Assembly (NCBI GenBank): GCA_016210985.1
Contig: JACQTD010000045.1
Coordinates: 1 to 34,726 of the forward strand
DNA: 34,726 nt
Origin: Acidobacteriota bacterium
GTDB lineage: Bacteria > Acidobacteriota > Blastocatellia > HR10 > JACQTD01
Reading direction: 5' to 3'
The notes beneath the pieces are model-generated. The model saw only the letters and a list, made by a program, of their open reading frames with translations. It had not been told where the DNA came from and did no database searches. Within the stretch, counting starts at the first letter, position 1; every line of letters begins with the position of its first letter. The translations under genes were made by a program, and so were the position numbers. Shown in pieces: positions 11,447 through 24,116 of the stretch.

Positions 11447-13654
11447 TTACTGCGGCCGATCGGCTCCCTCGGGCACGATGTAGAGCTCAACCCGCCGGTT
11501 ACGGGCGCGATTTCCACCCGGATCCGGCCGGGAACTGCCAAAGCTCCGAACCTCGATCCGCGCCGGGTCGATTCGCTTATCCCGAACCAGGTACTTCTTC
11601 ACGTTCTCGGCGCGACTCTTGGCGAGCGATTCCGGCTCGCCCTTATCGCAATGGCCGTCGATCAGCAGAACGGACTTCGGTTCCTGCTGCAACCGCAACG
11701 CCACGTCGTCGAGCAGCGCCTTATGCATGTTGTTGACCCGGGCATTGTTCCTGGGGAAGATCAGTTCCTCGCCAAGCCGCGTGGCCTCGGGTTTCCTGAC
11801 GGAATGAACCGTCAGCGTGCGCGAATCGGTATCAGAACCGCCCCGGCCGTCGCTCACCGTCAGCCGTACGGTCACGTTCACCGGCGGGGCGCCCGGTCCG
11901 CCCGTCAAGCCGGTGGTATCCATTCTGACCTCGGTTCCCCTTCCGGTGATCTGTCCGGGACTCACCGACCACTGATAGGTCAGAGGATCATTATCGGGAT
12001 CATGTGCGATCGCCCAGATCCGCACCGTCTCGCCGTCGGTGATCTGCTGTTCCACCTGAGGCGTGCCGACGACGGCGTAGTTGATGGCATCGATCTCGGG
12101 CGGTCGGTTGGCCGGCGGCGGAGGTGGCGCCTGCGGCGCCGGAGCGACGACGCGCAAGCTCCGGGTGGCGCTCGCGGTGCCTCCTTTTCCGTCGTCCACC
12201 GTGACGCTGGTGATGAGATCGACGGGGGCCGAGCCGGTTCGGGGATTAATCCCGGCGGTGTCGAGCGTCACGGTTGGGCCGCTGCCGCTGATCCTTCCCG
12301 CGGTACTGCTCCAGGTGAACCCAAGCACATCGTTGTCGGGATCGCTGGCGCGAGCCGTCAGCCGGATGGGCTCGCCATCCGTGACGCTGTTCTTGTCCGA
12401 ATCGAGCGCCACACTAGGAGGACGATTGTCTGGCTGCACGGCGGCCCGCTTCGGCCTCCGGCCGTAACCCAGGCTGACCACGAAACCATTGACGTCCCCC
12501 TGGTCGATCGTGATGGGGTCGAGAGCCTGGGTCGTGGTATTGAATTGAAAAACGGTTCGCTTGTCCCTGGCATCAAGCAGCGTCCGCCAGCCGCCACCGA
12601 ATTGAAAGCGCCCGTCACAGAGGAAGAAGCGGGCACCGATAACCAGGTCGAGCGGATTCACCGCGTCCTGATTGGGCGTTCCGCCGCCGGCATAAACCGT
12701 ACCATTCAGTTCACCGGTATAGACCATGTAACGGTTGGGCGCCCACTCGAGACCCGTGTTGAGCATCAACTCGTTCCGGCGGTCGAGAATCTTCAGGCCC
12801 TGCGCATGGGGGTCGCCGTTGAAGATGTATCCCACGTTCTGATGAAACCGGAGCCGGTTATCGAAGAACTTCTCGCTCGTGATCAGGACCGGCCCGCCGT
12901 CCAGTTCTCCGGCTCCGCGGCCTTGGGCGAGCCCGTCGAATTCACTGGTCGTGGGGATGCGCAGCAGACCCGCCGCGGCCACGCTGAACCAATGATCGAC
13001 GTCGTTCAGGGCAAGCTTGGCGCCCACGGTGACGTTGCCCAGCCCGTTCCCCGATTGCTTCGGCCCGCCGGCGTCCATGTAAGGGAAAAAGGGCAGGTCA
13101 TTGTAAAAGCTGGGTCGATTGAACGGCTGCAACCCTGACGGCCCCAGGTTCCCGGCGAAGGCGCCGATGACCGGCAGGATGCCTCCACCGAGGGCGAAGG
13201 TATTGGGGAAATAGGCCGTGCCGTCTCTGCCGCCGACCGGGGGCCCAAACGCGAGGAACGGATCGTGACCCGGTCCGCCGTTCGCGAACCGGCCGTCATT
13301 GAAGGCCGAGCCGCTGAGGAAAAACGGCTGCCGGGTAGTAGGTTGCTGGAAGAAATCGACATTGGCGAACAACTCGAGGCGATTGGTGACGCCATAGGTG
13401 AGATTGAAGGGAATACGATTGATATCCAGGTCGCCCGGATCACGATCGAAGTTGTTCCAGAATACGCCAAGCGTGTACTCACCCTTCTTCAGCGTACGGG
13501 CGCTGAACGTCCCGAAGAGCCCCGTGCTGGTCCCTCCCATGGTCGTCGACGTGGTCTGATGGGCGGGATTGACCTCACGCTCCTGCGGCAGCGCCGTACT
13601 CGAGCAGGTGAGGACGATGACGATCGAAATAAGAAACCGTGAGATATTCCTCAT
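11447..13654 (-). CDS. OmpA-family outer-membrane protein with two PKD/Ig-like domains
   Basis: The 735-residue protein starts with a signal peptide (about 1-23). A long N-terminal part (about 30-390) is rich in alternating aromatic and small residues, as in a beta-barrel or porin-like domain. Two similar Ig/PKD-like domains follow, each opening with NRPP and holding SDPDND or HDPDND plus a closing VTVDDGKGG or LTVSDGRGG. The C-terminal OmpA domain (about 630-735) binds peptidoglycan in this family; its DGHCDKGE, SRAENVKKYL, SFGSSRPDPGG and NRRVELYI segments are clear. The role is probably structural, tying the outer membrane to the cell wall. It may also display the PKD-like domains or form a pore, which is inference. 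Confidence 0.87.
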   Translation of the reverse strand: MRNISRFLISIVIVLTCSSTALPQEREVNPAHQTTSTTMGGTSTGLFGTFSARTLKKGEYTLGVFWNNFDRDPGDLDINRIPFNLTYGVTNRLELFANVDFFQQPTTRQPFFLSGSAFNDGRFANGGPGHDPFLAFGPPVGGRDGTAYFPNTFALGGGILPVIGAFAGNLGPSGLQPFNRPSFYNDLPFFPYMDAGGPKQSGNGLGNVTVGAKLALNDVDHWFSVAAAGLLRIPTTSEFDGLAQGRGAGELDGGPVLITSEKFFDNRLRFHQNVGYIFNGDPHAQGLKILDRRNELMLNTGLEWAPNRYMVYTGELNGTVYAGGGTPNQDAVNPLDLVIGARFFLCDGRFQFGGGWRTLLDARDKRTVFQFNTTTQALDPITIDQGDVNGFVVSLGYGRRPKRAAVQPDNRPPSVALDSDKNSVTDGEPIRLTARASDPDNDVLGFTWSSTAGRISGSGPTVTLDTAGINPRTGSAPVDLITSVTVDDGKGGTASATRSLRVVAPAPQAPPPPPANRPPEIDAINYAVVGTPQVEQQITDGETVRIWAIAHDPDNDPLTYQWSVSPGQITGRGTEVRMDTTGLTGGPGAPPVNVTVRLTVSDGRGGSDTDSRTLTVHSVRKPEATRLGEELIFPRNNARVNNMHKALLDDVALRLQQEPKSVLLIDGHCDKGEPESLAKSRAENVKKYLVRDKRIDPARIEVRSFGSSRPDPGGNRARNRRVELYIVPEGADRPQ

Positions 13655-20570: not shown

Positions 20571-20777
20571 ATGATCAAAGACGCCGACCTGCTGAACGAG
20601 TTCGAGAAATCGCAGATCCGCGGCGAGCCGCCGGACTTCCGCCAGAATCTCATCATTTACGAAGCCTTGTTTCGGGAGGCGACCGCGATGGGCATCTTTC
20701 CGCTTAAAGATCCACTGGACGGGATCGACGTTGATATCCGTCTGGCCAGAGTTCTGAATGTTCGGATCCCTACTTGA
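20571..20777 (+). CDS. Small conserved protein paired with a nucleotidyltransferase
   Basis: This 68-residue protein is acidic and helix-rich, with DADLLNEFEKSQIRGEPPDF near the N-terminus and PLKDPLDGIDVDIRLARVLN near the C-terminus. I recall similar small proteins beside AbiEii-like nucleotidyltransferases in other bacteria, but the family has no established function. The stop overlaps the next gene by 20 bases, so translation of the two is probably coupled. By analogy with toxin-antitoxin pairs, it could be the partner or antitoxin of the nucleotidyltransferase; this is inference from arrangement only. Confidence 0.7.
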   Translation: MIKDADLLNEFEKSQIRGEPPDFRQNLIIYEALFREATAMGIFPLKDPLDGIDVDIRLARVLNVRIPT

Positions 20778-21312
20778 GCGAATTGCGGCCGCGTTTGCCA
20801 ACGCTGAGATTCCTTACATGGTGATCGGCGGGCAGGCCGTGCTCCTTTATGGGGAACCTCGGCTCACAAAGGATGTCGACATCACACTGGGAGTGGGCCT
20901 CGATCGATTAGATGAGGTAGTCGGTGTAGCGGCGAGTCTGGCATTCCAACCGCTCGTCGATCCCGAAACCTTCACTCGGCGGACATGTGTGCTACCCTGT
21001 TTGGACGTGCTCTCCGGGATCCGGTGCGATCTGATCTTTTCGTTCTCTTCGTTTGAGCAAGCGGCCATGCTTAGAACGAGGGCGGTCAGGATCGGTGAAA
21101 CCGATGTCCGATTCGTCTCCCTGGAGGATTTGATCATCCACAAGATGGTCGCCGGGCGCCCGCGAGATCTCGAGGATGTAAAGAGCCTAATGTTGAAGAA
21201 TCCGCGGGCGGACAACGGCTACGTTAAACACTGGCTGGACCTCTTCTCCGCCAGCCTGGGGGAGCCGTTTCGGCAGCGCTTCGATGAACTCCTGAAGGAA
21301 TTGACCTGCTGA
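20758..21312 (+). CDS. Nucleotidyltransferase, AbiEii/DUF6036-like
   Basis: The 184-residue protein has the nucleotidyltransferase core: GG at residues 24-25 (VIGGQAVLLYGEPRLTKD), the D39-x-D41 metal-binding pair in KDVDITLG, and a later SLEDLIIHKMVAGRPRDLED segment typical of AbiEii/DUF6036 proteins. Members transfer nucleotides to tRNA or proteins; several act as toxins or phage-abortive systems. It follows the 68-residue gene with a 20-base overlap. It ends 236 bases before the Cas12m-like gene on the other strand, so it sits next to another possible defence gene. Function in this organism is unproven. Confidence 0.8.
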   Translation: MFGSLLERIAAAFANAEIPYMVIGGQAVLLYGEPRLTKDVDITLGVGLDRLDEVVGVAASLAFQPLVDPETFTRRTCVLPCLDVLSGIRCDLIFSFSSFEQAAMLRTRAVRIGETDVRFVSLEDLIIHKMVAGRPRDLEDVKSLMLKNPRADNGYVKHWLDLFSASLGEPFRQRFDELLKELTC

Positions 21313-21373: not shown

Positions 21374-21452
21374 TTGTGGGAGTCCTCTCCTCCAGGGCGA
21401 TGGGGTGCTGCTGCTACAGTACCCCTCGGACTGCGGGAGAGCCCTCCCACAA
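21374..21452. repeat. REPIN-like double hairpin downstream of the Cas12m-like gene
   Basis: Outer arms TTGTGGGAG (21374-21382) and CTCCCACAA (21444-21452) pair perfectly, then CTCTCC (21385-21390) with GGAGAG (21436-21441), enclosing an inner stem GGGGTGCTG/CAGTACCCC (21402-21425, one G-T pair). The two outer 17-mers are inverted copies of each other with 15 of 17 matches, the layout of a REPIN (paired REP sequences). A related 13-mer, TGTGGGAGGGCTC, occurs alone at 25369-25381. The element lies about 97 bases beyond the nuclease stop, where a guide-type RNA could also lie, but the second copy favours a dispersed repeat. Confidence 0.65.
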
Positions 21453-21505
21453 GTACGGTCTCTTCCATGGATGTCCCTATAATATGGGGAGGGTGTAAAG
21501 CAAGT

Positions 21506-21527
21506 TTCAATAGGCAATTCTATTGAA
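21506..21527. repeat. 8-bp inverted repeat just past the Cas12m-like stop codon
   Basis: TTCAATAG-GCAATT-CTATTGAA is a perfect 8-bp stem with a 6-base loop, about 20 bases downstream (minus strand) of the nuclease stop. No T-run follows directly. It may be a weak terminator, part of an RNA tied to the nuclease, or the end of an insertion element. Confidence 0.5.
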
Positions 21528-21548
21528 CACACAACTCAAGCCCGGACC

Positions 21549-23294
21549 CTACACGGTTATGACGGCGTCAGATTCCATGGGAATGACCGCTCGCTCGGTC
21601 GTCTGCGGCACGATAATGGATTTCAATATCTCGGGGATTTCAAGTTGCTTCACTGACGCATGCACGCCTCCCTGCCGGAGGTTGCTGGCTGCGGACACTT
21701 GACGGTCAATTCTTGACAGGAACCAGCTTGCGGCGTTCGTGTCTTGATCGAACCGGTGTCCATTCGGGCACTGCAGGATAAGGTCAGGCCCTCCCGGCGT
21801 TCGCCTCCCACAGGTGAAACAGGTGGTTGAGCTGTAGGCCGTCCTCCCGTCTATGAGCAGCATCTTCCGCTTGAGCGCCTGGTGCTTCAGAATCTTTCTA
21901 AACTCGCCGATCGCCGCGATTCGACGGTTGCGGTCGGCAAGGCGGAGGCGCCCTTTCTTCGAGCCATCCTCCGACATCTTCCTGATGCCCAGATCAGCTT
22001 CCCAGGAAATGGTGTCATAATTTGTTGCAAGCCAGGCCGCGAGATTCTGGTAGAGCCAGTGGCGTCGCCGGCCGAATCTCATGCGCGCGCAATGAATCCG
22101 GCGCCGGAGCCTGGCGTCGTTCACTCTCCAGGCTGAAATCAGTTGCCGGATCTCCGGGCCGGCTTCGGCTTCCTGAAGCTCGCGCTGGAATTGAAGGAGC
22201 GCAGCCTGTCCCAACTCTGTAATCGCTGAAAACTTGTTCCGAAGATTTTCGGGCCATTCCGGCCCCGCAGCACGGCGGGCTATCTCTGCTTTAAGGGATT
22301 CAAAGGATTGGTCCGCCCGCGAGGTTGCTTCTCGGATCTCCTCCCAGCTCTCGTATATCCTGTCCGCGTTTGGCCTTCCCGATCGTTCGATCCAGCGGCC
22401 GAAGTCCCGGGTAGGTCGGCTCGACATGTCGAGCGGAAGACGCAGTTCGGCAACCTCGCCGGTATGGCCGACCAGCATGCCGATACGCAGGTAAGAACCG
22501 AATCTCCTCCAGCCAAGATCCAGGCCACAGGTGCGGCCCGTGCTTTCCGGAACCGCGCTGGGAGGTAACTCGCATACGATTGCGATCGACCATTCCCAGC
22601 CGATTTGGCCGCGGTGGTTACCAATCAAGTTGACCGTCTTGATAAAGGCCTCCGCCGGGACGGGCCGGTGTAGCATCGTTCGAAATGTCATTCTCTCGCC
22701 ATCCAGTCCGAAGAACCCTTCGGTGTATCGCAGCCGTTTGGATTTTCGGGAATTGTCGATGTAGGCCTGCTGCGGAACCGGCTTGGTCCAGAATCGCCTG
22801 AGCGACCTCCGGGGCCGGGCTTGGAGCAGATTCGCGGCGGGTATGCCGCCCTGGCTGTACCGGTGCGGAATGACGATATTGGTCAGCCGGGAACGTCTTT
22901 GGGGAGTTCCGACCTGCGCATCCTGTCCCCCGTGGACGGTCGCATGGATCGCCCGCTGGACGGCTGACCTGAATCGGTCGAACAGGAACTCACGGCATTC
23001 CCAATTCAATCCCGAACGATCCGCAGCCTTGCGCAGGGCAGCGTCCATGGCAGGATGAAACACGTCTTTGGGGGTTCGATCAAGCACGGGCCGAGCCGTG
23101 TCGGGATGGGCGGTCTCGGCCTCAAGCAGATCCACGAATTCATTCCATAACGCCTGCATCCGTCTGGACGTCTCCCACACTTTCTCCGGGACACACGTTG
23201 GCTGAATCCAATACTTGTAAACCAACACCTGCCAGTCTTTCCTCAATCGCTGCCGCGCCATGGGTCCGCTCCGACAAGGTCTTCGTTCATTCAC
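21549..23294 (-). CDS. Orphan Cas12m/TnpB-related RuvC nuclease
   Basis: The 581-residue protein has the split RuvC nuclease layout of TnpB and small type V Cas12 proteins. RuvC-I is CGLDLGWRR with D259; RuvC-II is TISWEADLG with E432; a zinc ribbon is C492-x2-C495 and C509-x3-H513; RuvC-III is RFDQDTNAA with D518. All three acidic residues are present. Length, the GWR after the first Asp, and the helical stretch before RuvC-II (ISAWRVNDARLRRR...) are more like Cas12m (type V-M/V-U1) than ordinary TnpB (about 400 residues); the Mycolicibacterium Cas12m I recall has His at the first catalytic position. No CRISPR array, cas1/cas2 or transposase was found nearby. Starts: GTG 23294, or ATG 23261 (MARQRLRKDW), both with a GGAG upstream. 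Confidence 0.8.
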   Translation of the reverse strand: MNERRPCRSGPMARQRLRKDWQVLVYKYWIQPTCVPEKVWETSRRMQALWNEFVDLLEAETAHPDTARPVLDRTPKDVFHPAMDAALRKAADRSGLNWECREFLFDRFRSAVQRAIHATVHGGQDAQVGTPQRRSRLTNIVIPHRYSQGGIPAANLLQARPRRSLRRFWTKPVPQQAYIDNSRKSKRLRYTEGFFGLDGERMTFRTMLHRPVPAEAFIKTVNLIGNHRGQIGWEWSIAIVCELPPSAVPESTGRTCGLDLGWRRFGSYLRIGMLVGHTGEVAELRLPLDMSSRPTRDFGRWIERSGRPNADRIYESWEEIREATSRADQSFESLKAEIARRAAGPEWPENLRNKFSAITELGQAALLQFQRELQEAEAGPEIRQLISAWRVNDARLRRRIHCARMRFGRRRHWLYQNLAAWLATNYDTISWEADLGIRKMSEDGSKKGRLRLADRNRRIAAIGEFRKILKHQALKRKMLLIDGRTAYSSTTCFTCGRRTPGGPDLILQCPNGHRFDQDTNAASWFLSRIDRQVSAASNLRQGGVHASVKQLEIPEILKSIIVPQTTERAVIPMESDAVITV

Positions 23295-24062: not shown

Positions 24063-24116
24063 CCGCGTCAGGCTTGGGGAATTGCGAACCATCGCAATTT
24101 CGCAAGCCTGACGCGG
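24063..24116. repeat. Large two-step hairpin between the ECF sigma gene and the HAF gene
   Basis: A perfect 14-bp stem (CCGCGTCAGGCTTG, 24063-24076, with CAAGCCTGACGCGG, 24103-24116) encloses a perfect 8-bp stem (AATTGCGA/TCGCAATT, 24080-24099) around the 4-base loop ACCA. It begins right after the sigma stop codon. Only GTTT follows on the + side, so a classic terminator is not certain; in the gap between two converging genes it could stop both transcripts. Confidence 0.6.

Follow-up and report, generated by a model that had tools for sequence, protein, structure and literature searches.

A Cas12m-like effector gene without a CRISPR array, followed by a single candidate repeat-guide unit, in an Acidobacteriota genome

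Introduction

What RNA could guide a Cas12m-like protein whose gene lies beside no CRISPR array? To our knowledge, the Cas12m systems described so far are all small CRISPR systems that include an array. The gene that raises this question lies on contig C332 (minus strand) in an Acidobacteriota MAG (3.85 Mb, 79% complete), and it was encountered in a stretch of 34,726 nucleotides which was analyzed as a whole and is referred to below as the window. The first-pass annotation described the protein as an orphan nuclease with an intact RuvC triad that could be either a Cas12m relative using a different guide source or a domesticated TnpB acting with a non-CRISPR RNA, next to a possible defense pair. 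Here, we compared the protein with Cas12m, Cas12f, and TnpB proteins, and the DNA behind its gene with that of its paralogs and relatives.

Results

The effector gene and its RuvC triad

The gene and the principal residues of its product are located as follows.

21549..23294, minus strand: gene of the Cas12m-like effector; read from GTG it has 581 codons, and a likely ATG start at 23261 gives 570 aa
22518..22520, minus strand: codon of RuvC-I Asp259 (GLDLGWRR), from alignments
21999..22001, minus strand: codon of RuvC-II Glu432 (ISWEADL), from alignments
21741..21743, minus strand: codon of RuvC-III Asp518 (FDQDTNAA), from alignments
21768..21821, minus strand: zinc ribbon C492xxC495...C509 (TNB domain), from Pfam PF07282 and alignment

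The frame running from 23294 to 21549 is intact. Translation likely starts at the ATG of codon 12, because a relative from another genome (G462) begins with MARKRLREDW and the window protein reads MARQRLRKDW at that point. In agreement with the first-pass annotation, D259, E432, and D518 fall in the triad columns of the Cas12m/TnpB alignment (D-E-D), and the zinc ribbon was recovered with Pfam PF07282 over residues 463–522 (E 5e-8), its cysteines being invariant in the alignment. The reported lack of adjoining CRISPR machinery or transposase was also borne out: we found no CRISPR array in the window, the 79%-complete genome yielded no Cas1, and the effector's contig carries no Y1 transposase. 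A PADLOC profile search, in which the protein matched Cas12u1 best (E 2.4e-32), and three genomic paralogs with dN/dS of about 0.2 confirm that this array-less Cas12m-like effector is real and not a chance observation.

The retained D259 had been set against a loss of the first catalytic Asp in Cas12m. This loss holds for the H-D-D and N-D-D forms but not for the D-E-D forms; MsCas12m, a protein without dsDNA cleavage, has the same triad, and the D-E-D Cas12m proteins tested show binding but no cleavage of dsDNA (PMC11013384). Catalytic competence therefore cannot be inferred from the triad of the window effector, which is best read as a putative RNA-guided DNA binder, possibly a nuclease.

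Placement on the Cas12m side of the family

Among PDB relatives of the window protein, the significant ones were Cas12m chains only (best 23vw and 23vu), and a profile built from the window family and plasmid relatives gave much better scores to Cas12m structures than to those of Cas12f and TnpB. Foldseek returned Cas12m2 (1.2e-14) and GoCas12m (8.5e-14) as best matches, a result that we treat as supportive only, because the AlphaFold model used as the query was of modest quality (pLDDT 59.5) and its alignment, which included viral Cas12m rows, leaned towards Cas12m; a single-sequence fold (pLDDT 36) was unusable. In the tree, the window family and the G462 relative (locus L110) joined the Cas12m-like proteins, and five TnpB proteins split off at 100/99. 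The window effector sits on a long branch, and within the Cas12m side its placement has a support of 58/72, and a basal position next to TnpB is also compatible with the data (p-AU 0.25). Profile, solved-structure, and tree comparisons thus favor Cas12m over TnpB, with no placement within the TnpB clade, and uphold the earlier suggestion of an array-less Cas12m relative with an intact triad. From these comparisons of sequence, we group the effector with Cas12m (V-U1/V-M) within the family and not with ordinary TnpB.

Sequence kinship to Cas12m extends across the RuvC/TNB lobe. As delimited by alignment and not by a solved structure, the REC segment comprises 46 aa between N51 and W98, compared with 86–119 aa in Cas12m, 40–52 aa in TnpB, and 71 aa in L110, and the REC2/Roof coiled-coil insertion of Cas12m was not found in the same alignment. 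With a REC segment in the TnpB size range, the effector is a mosaic of a Cas12m-type nuclease lobe and a short recognition lobe, the latter of which may be primitive or reduced. Short peptide patterns retrieved no close homologs from genome contigs or viral contigs, and the searched genomes of the same order, class, and phylum yielded no family member besides L110, L060 (on a long branch), and a weak TnpB match.

Copies in the genome

The gene is not an orphan in the sense of a single copy. The genome encodes four family members: the window gene (W), C11a (intact, 49% identity to W), C11b (one internal TAA), and C339 (a C-terminal fragment fused to another frame); the zinc-ribbon domain of the effector was found only in these four proteins of the genome. 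Given the nonsense codon in C11b and the fragment C339, the family is partly decaying. Between copies, dN/dS ranges from 0.17 to 0.28, and synonymous divergence is close to saturation (4-fold sites are about 40% identical). For C11a and C339, the match is 81% across the gene and does not extend into the flanks.

A copy of one secreted-protein gene stands before C11a and another before C11b (L005, contig C11); these copies are 89% identical in amino acid sequence although the C11a and C11b effectors are near synonymous saturation. The genome contains only these two copies and thus no third copy as a target, and a TldR-style replacement of a host homolog of the secreted protein was rejected.

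A repeat-like unit and a candidate guide 3′ of the gene

The gene is not without a candidate guide source: a repeat-like unit follows it, and the different guide source envisaged in the first-pass annotation now has a candidate location.

21504..21528, minus strand: single CRISPR-repeat-like unit GTTCAATAGAATTGCCTATTGAAAC, 25 nt, an 8-bp hairpin followed by AC, 20 nt past the stop codon
21484..21503, minus strand: candidate guide TTGCTTTACACCCTCCCCAT, the first 16–20 nt after AC, positioned by analogy with Cas12m arrays

Three copies retain their 3′ end, and an alignment of these ends revealed one similarity island past the stop codon. The unit lies less than 100 nt from the stop codon in W, C11a (GTTCAACAGATATGACTGTTGAAAC), and C11b (GTTCGGCAGAATTTGACTGTCGAAAC), and its degenerate pattern occurs five times in 3.85 Mb, three of the five occurrences being these units (reversed control, 2). 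The hairpins of W and C11a are 80% identical, against 40% at 4-fold sites, and the window unit folds with a z of −4.35. All eight base pairs form in four sequences, including the L110 repeat, and five of the eight do so with two-sided changes, whereas pairing in slid controls drops to 22–47%. After AC, C11a and C11b are identical at 15 of 16 positions, and similarity then decays to random (0.14–0.33 outside the unit-guide island); the W guide agrees with theirs at only 38–44%. This pattern is that of a constant scaffold with a guide of some 16 nt behind it, one guide being common to C11a and C11b and another present in W, and we propose the unit as a guide-RNA scaffold. No other copy of the unit was found in the 79%-complete assembly, the missing part of which could hold an array.

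Relation to CRISPR repeats and to other loci

In plasmid- and phage-borne Cas12m relatives, the repeats end in a hairpin followed by AC, with 23–24 nt from stem start to AC. In a covariance model of seven Cas12m repeats, none from the window family, the unit was the best match in each 3′ flank (211–266 nt searched), with E values of 0.034 (W), 2e-4 (C11a), and 0.01 (C11b). Over 51 kb, the same model ranked C11a first and W 15th with 7.3 bits, and under Infernal default filters none of the three units was reported. A wider YTC...GARAC rule was framed after the window units were known, and we do not treat it as independent evidence. In sequence, the window unit is thus weakly similar to classical Cas12m repeats, and it is conservation, position, and the L110 array that carry the case.

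This array is the strongest link of the unit to CRISPR repeats. The L110 effector, from the same class, has a D-E-D triad and 35% identity to the window protein; its array comprises four repeats (GTTTTAAGTCGAGTAGTGTGCTACTCGAAC) with spacers of 36–37 nt and is now split from the effector gene by an IS630-type element. Its repeat hairpin consists of an 8-bp stem followed by AC, as in the window unit, and a model built from the three window-genome units ranked one L110 repeat first in L110, with an E value of only 0.74.

The window locus resembles others in having one unit: the Ca. Manganitrophus plasmid effectors L039 and L101 and the viral contig L088 each carry exactly one unit directly after the stop codon, with no array in the stretch read, which indicates that one-unit Cas12m loci occur in more than one lineage; arrays are present at L040, L041, L042, L046, and L094. 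In the literature on Cas12m and array-less Cas12, of which our coverage was incomplete, we came across no Cas12m locus described as having one unit. The candidate guide source, a single unit 3′ of an array-less Cas12m-like gene, is the new element here; D-E-D Cas12m is already known.

Cas12m-like genes on Caballeronia and Paraburkholderia plasmids are array-less and have in common a different hairpin, ATAATC...GATTAT (L043, 6054–6110; L100), right past the stop codon and upstream of repA. Viral Cas12m-like loci (L095, L098, and L091–L093) contain degenerate mini-arrays of about three units, the stems of which differ by compensatory changes.

Discussion

Alternative explanations of the unit

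The alternative that survives best, although we regard it as unlikely, is a decaying type V CRISPR locus whose array shrank to one repeat with no present function. It would account for the array of the L110 relative, the damage to C11b and C339, and the lack of adaptation genes, but it fits poorly with intact W and C11a genes, with dN/dS of about 0.2 despite near-saturated synonymous divergence, and with exactly one well-paired unit at each of three loci, two of which carry the same guide.

A domesticated TnpB working with a non-CRISPR RNA, as suggested in the first-pass annotation, does not agree with the separate TnpB clade (100/99) or with a unit that matches the CRISPR-repeat architecture of the array-bearing relative; ordinary and domesticated TnpB were rejected on account of the tree, the lack of transposase or transposon ends, and the relative's array. 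It is very unlikely that the hairpin forms the right end of an IS200/IS605-like element, with nothing but flanking DNA in the place of the guide. Such an element could explain a multi-copy, partly decayed family, the gene shared by C11a and C339 without common flanks, and a REC segment of TnpB size; however, no copy is accompanied by TnpA, the eight Y1 (RAYT-type) transposases of the genome are all on other contigs, a matching left-end hairpin was not found in a genome-wide pattern search, and C11a and C11b have a conserved guide in common, whereas their further flanks differ.

Least probable of all is that the hairpin serves the mRNA in an unrelated way, such as by stabilizing it or as a processing site, and that the protein uses other guides or none, since, common as 3′ hairpins alone are and although no target was found for the guides, the unit lacks a terminator-like T-run, is conserved in sequence as well as structure, has the hairpin of the L110 CRISPR repeat with AC before the spacers, and is followed in C11a and C11b by a further 16 conserved nucleotides.

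Proposed mechanism and function

We consider it probable that the window effector is a mono-guide, array-less, non-adaptive member of the Cas12m (V-U1/V-M) group. In the proposed mechanism, the effector mRNA would run through into the single repeat-like hairpin 20–75 nt past the stop codon, and the RNA would be cut or trimmed at the hairpin to give a scaffold (hairpin and AC) with a guide of 16–20 nt. The effector would bind this RNA, and the resulting RNP would recognize one fixed PAM-flanked DNA target, which would be occupied, as by known Cas12m, or perhaps cleaved. The sequence itself shows the protein family, the triad, the missing array, the conserved and paired unit, the guide kept in two paralogs, and the relative's array with its matching hairpin; we infer that the RNA is transcribed and processed and that the protein binds it, and likewise the target and the outcome. 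Each genomic copy would have one fixed guide of its own and could serve as a dedicated RNA-guided regulator or fixed-target silencer; a fixed guide per copy, with neither array nor adaptation module, argues against adaptive immunity.

Searches for guide targets with up to two mismatches in the 79%-complete genome yielded none that was convincing (hits were coding or chance-level), and exact 20-mer searches of viral contigs yielded none. As no target was found, the function, whether regulator, fixed-target silencer, or remnant, is an inference. As TldRs demonstrate, a gene of this kind with one fixed guide next to it can yield an RNA-guided repressor (PMC13418256). Tentatively, we put forward as quite possible the broader view that a CRISPR-type effector gave up adaptive immunity for a fixed repeat-guide cassette per paralog and may have become a dedicated RNA-guided DNA-binding regulator or silencer, its shortened REC lobe suited to a guide some 16 nt long, and that this recurred in plasmid and viral Cas12m relatives.

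Comparison with known systems

With Cas12m (V-M, ex V-U1; MmCas12m2, GoCas12m, MsCas12m), the window effector shares the GWR RuvC-I motif, the HRP motif, the large helical RuvC insertion, and the zinc ribbon, and its unit resembles a single short crRNA-like hairpin with AC before the guide; the D-E-D triad is that of MsCas12m. It differs in its identity of about 25%, its short REC segment without a full Roof/REC2, an 8-bp stem without an evident pseudoknot, the absence of an adjacent array, and its chromosomal, multi-copy occurrence. L110 shares the triad and hairpin but differs in its array, IS630-type split, and longer REC segment. The locus, as read from sequence alone, resembles TldR in having a single (here putative) guide RNA beside the gene and in being non-adaptive, multi-copy, and possibly a dedicated regulator. 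In contrast, TldR is TnpB-derived, with a dead RuvC and a longer reRNA, whereas the window effector is of Cas12m type with D259, E432, and D518 present. RuvC with a zinc ribbon, a short REC, and a (here putative) RNA encoded 3′ of the gene are also features of TnpB (IS200/IS605, IS607), from which the window effector differs in lacking transposase and ends, in belonging to a separate clade, and in having a short repeat-like unit; TnpB reRNA is long, about 150 nt (PMC11013384).

If an effector was kept together with one fixed guide, the locus would represent a route from CRISPR effector to dedicated regulator, parallel to that of TldR from TnpB; alternatively, the lineage may preserve a step between TnpB and Cas12m. 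The locus also offers an effector of compact size that combines an intact triad with a short REC lobe, and its putative guide scaffold is very short.

Neighborhood of the locus

Beyond the candidate guide lies a further structured element.

21374..21452, strand not given: palindromic element TTGTGGGAG...CTCCCACAA, member of a genome-wide family with 27 matches (loci L011–L036)

It is probably an ordinary REP/MITE-like repeat, and a family member is also located about 190 bp past C11a. As a guide RNA, the palindrome was ruled out by its 27 family matches elsewhere in the genome.

At 20571–21312, a 68-aa frame without a family match overlaps a gene for a DUF6036/AbiEii-like nucleotidyltransferase, possibly as a toxin-antitoxin-like pair. 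The earlier suggestion that this adjoining pair is tied to the effector was not sustained: the nucleotidyltransferase lies on the opposite strand and is absent beside C11a, C11b, and C339, where the genes were read, and there is thus no evidence of linkage. On the other side of the effector gene, at 24063–24116, a strong 25-bp inverted repeat lies between an ECF sigma gene and the next gene, and a similar palindrome is found in L006 at 12936–12988.
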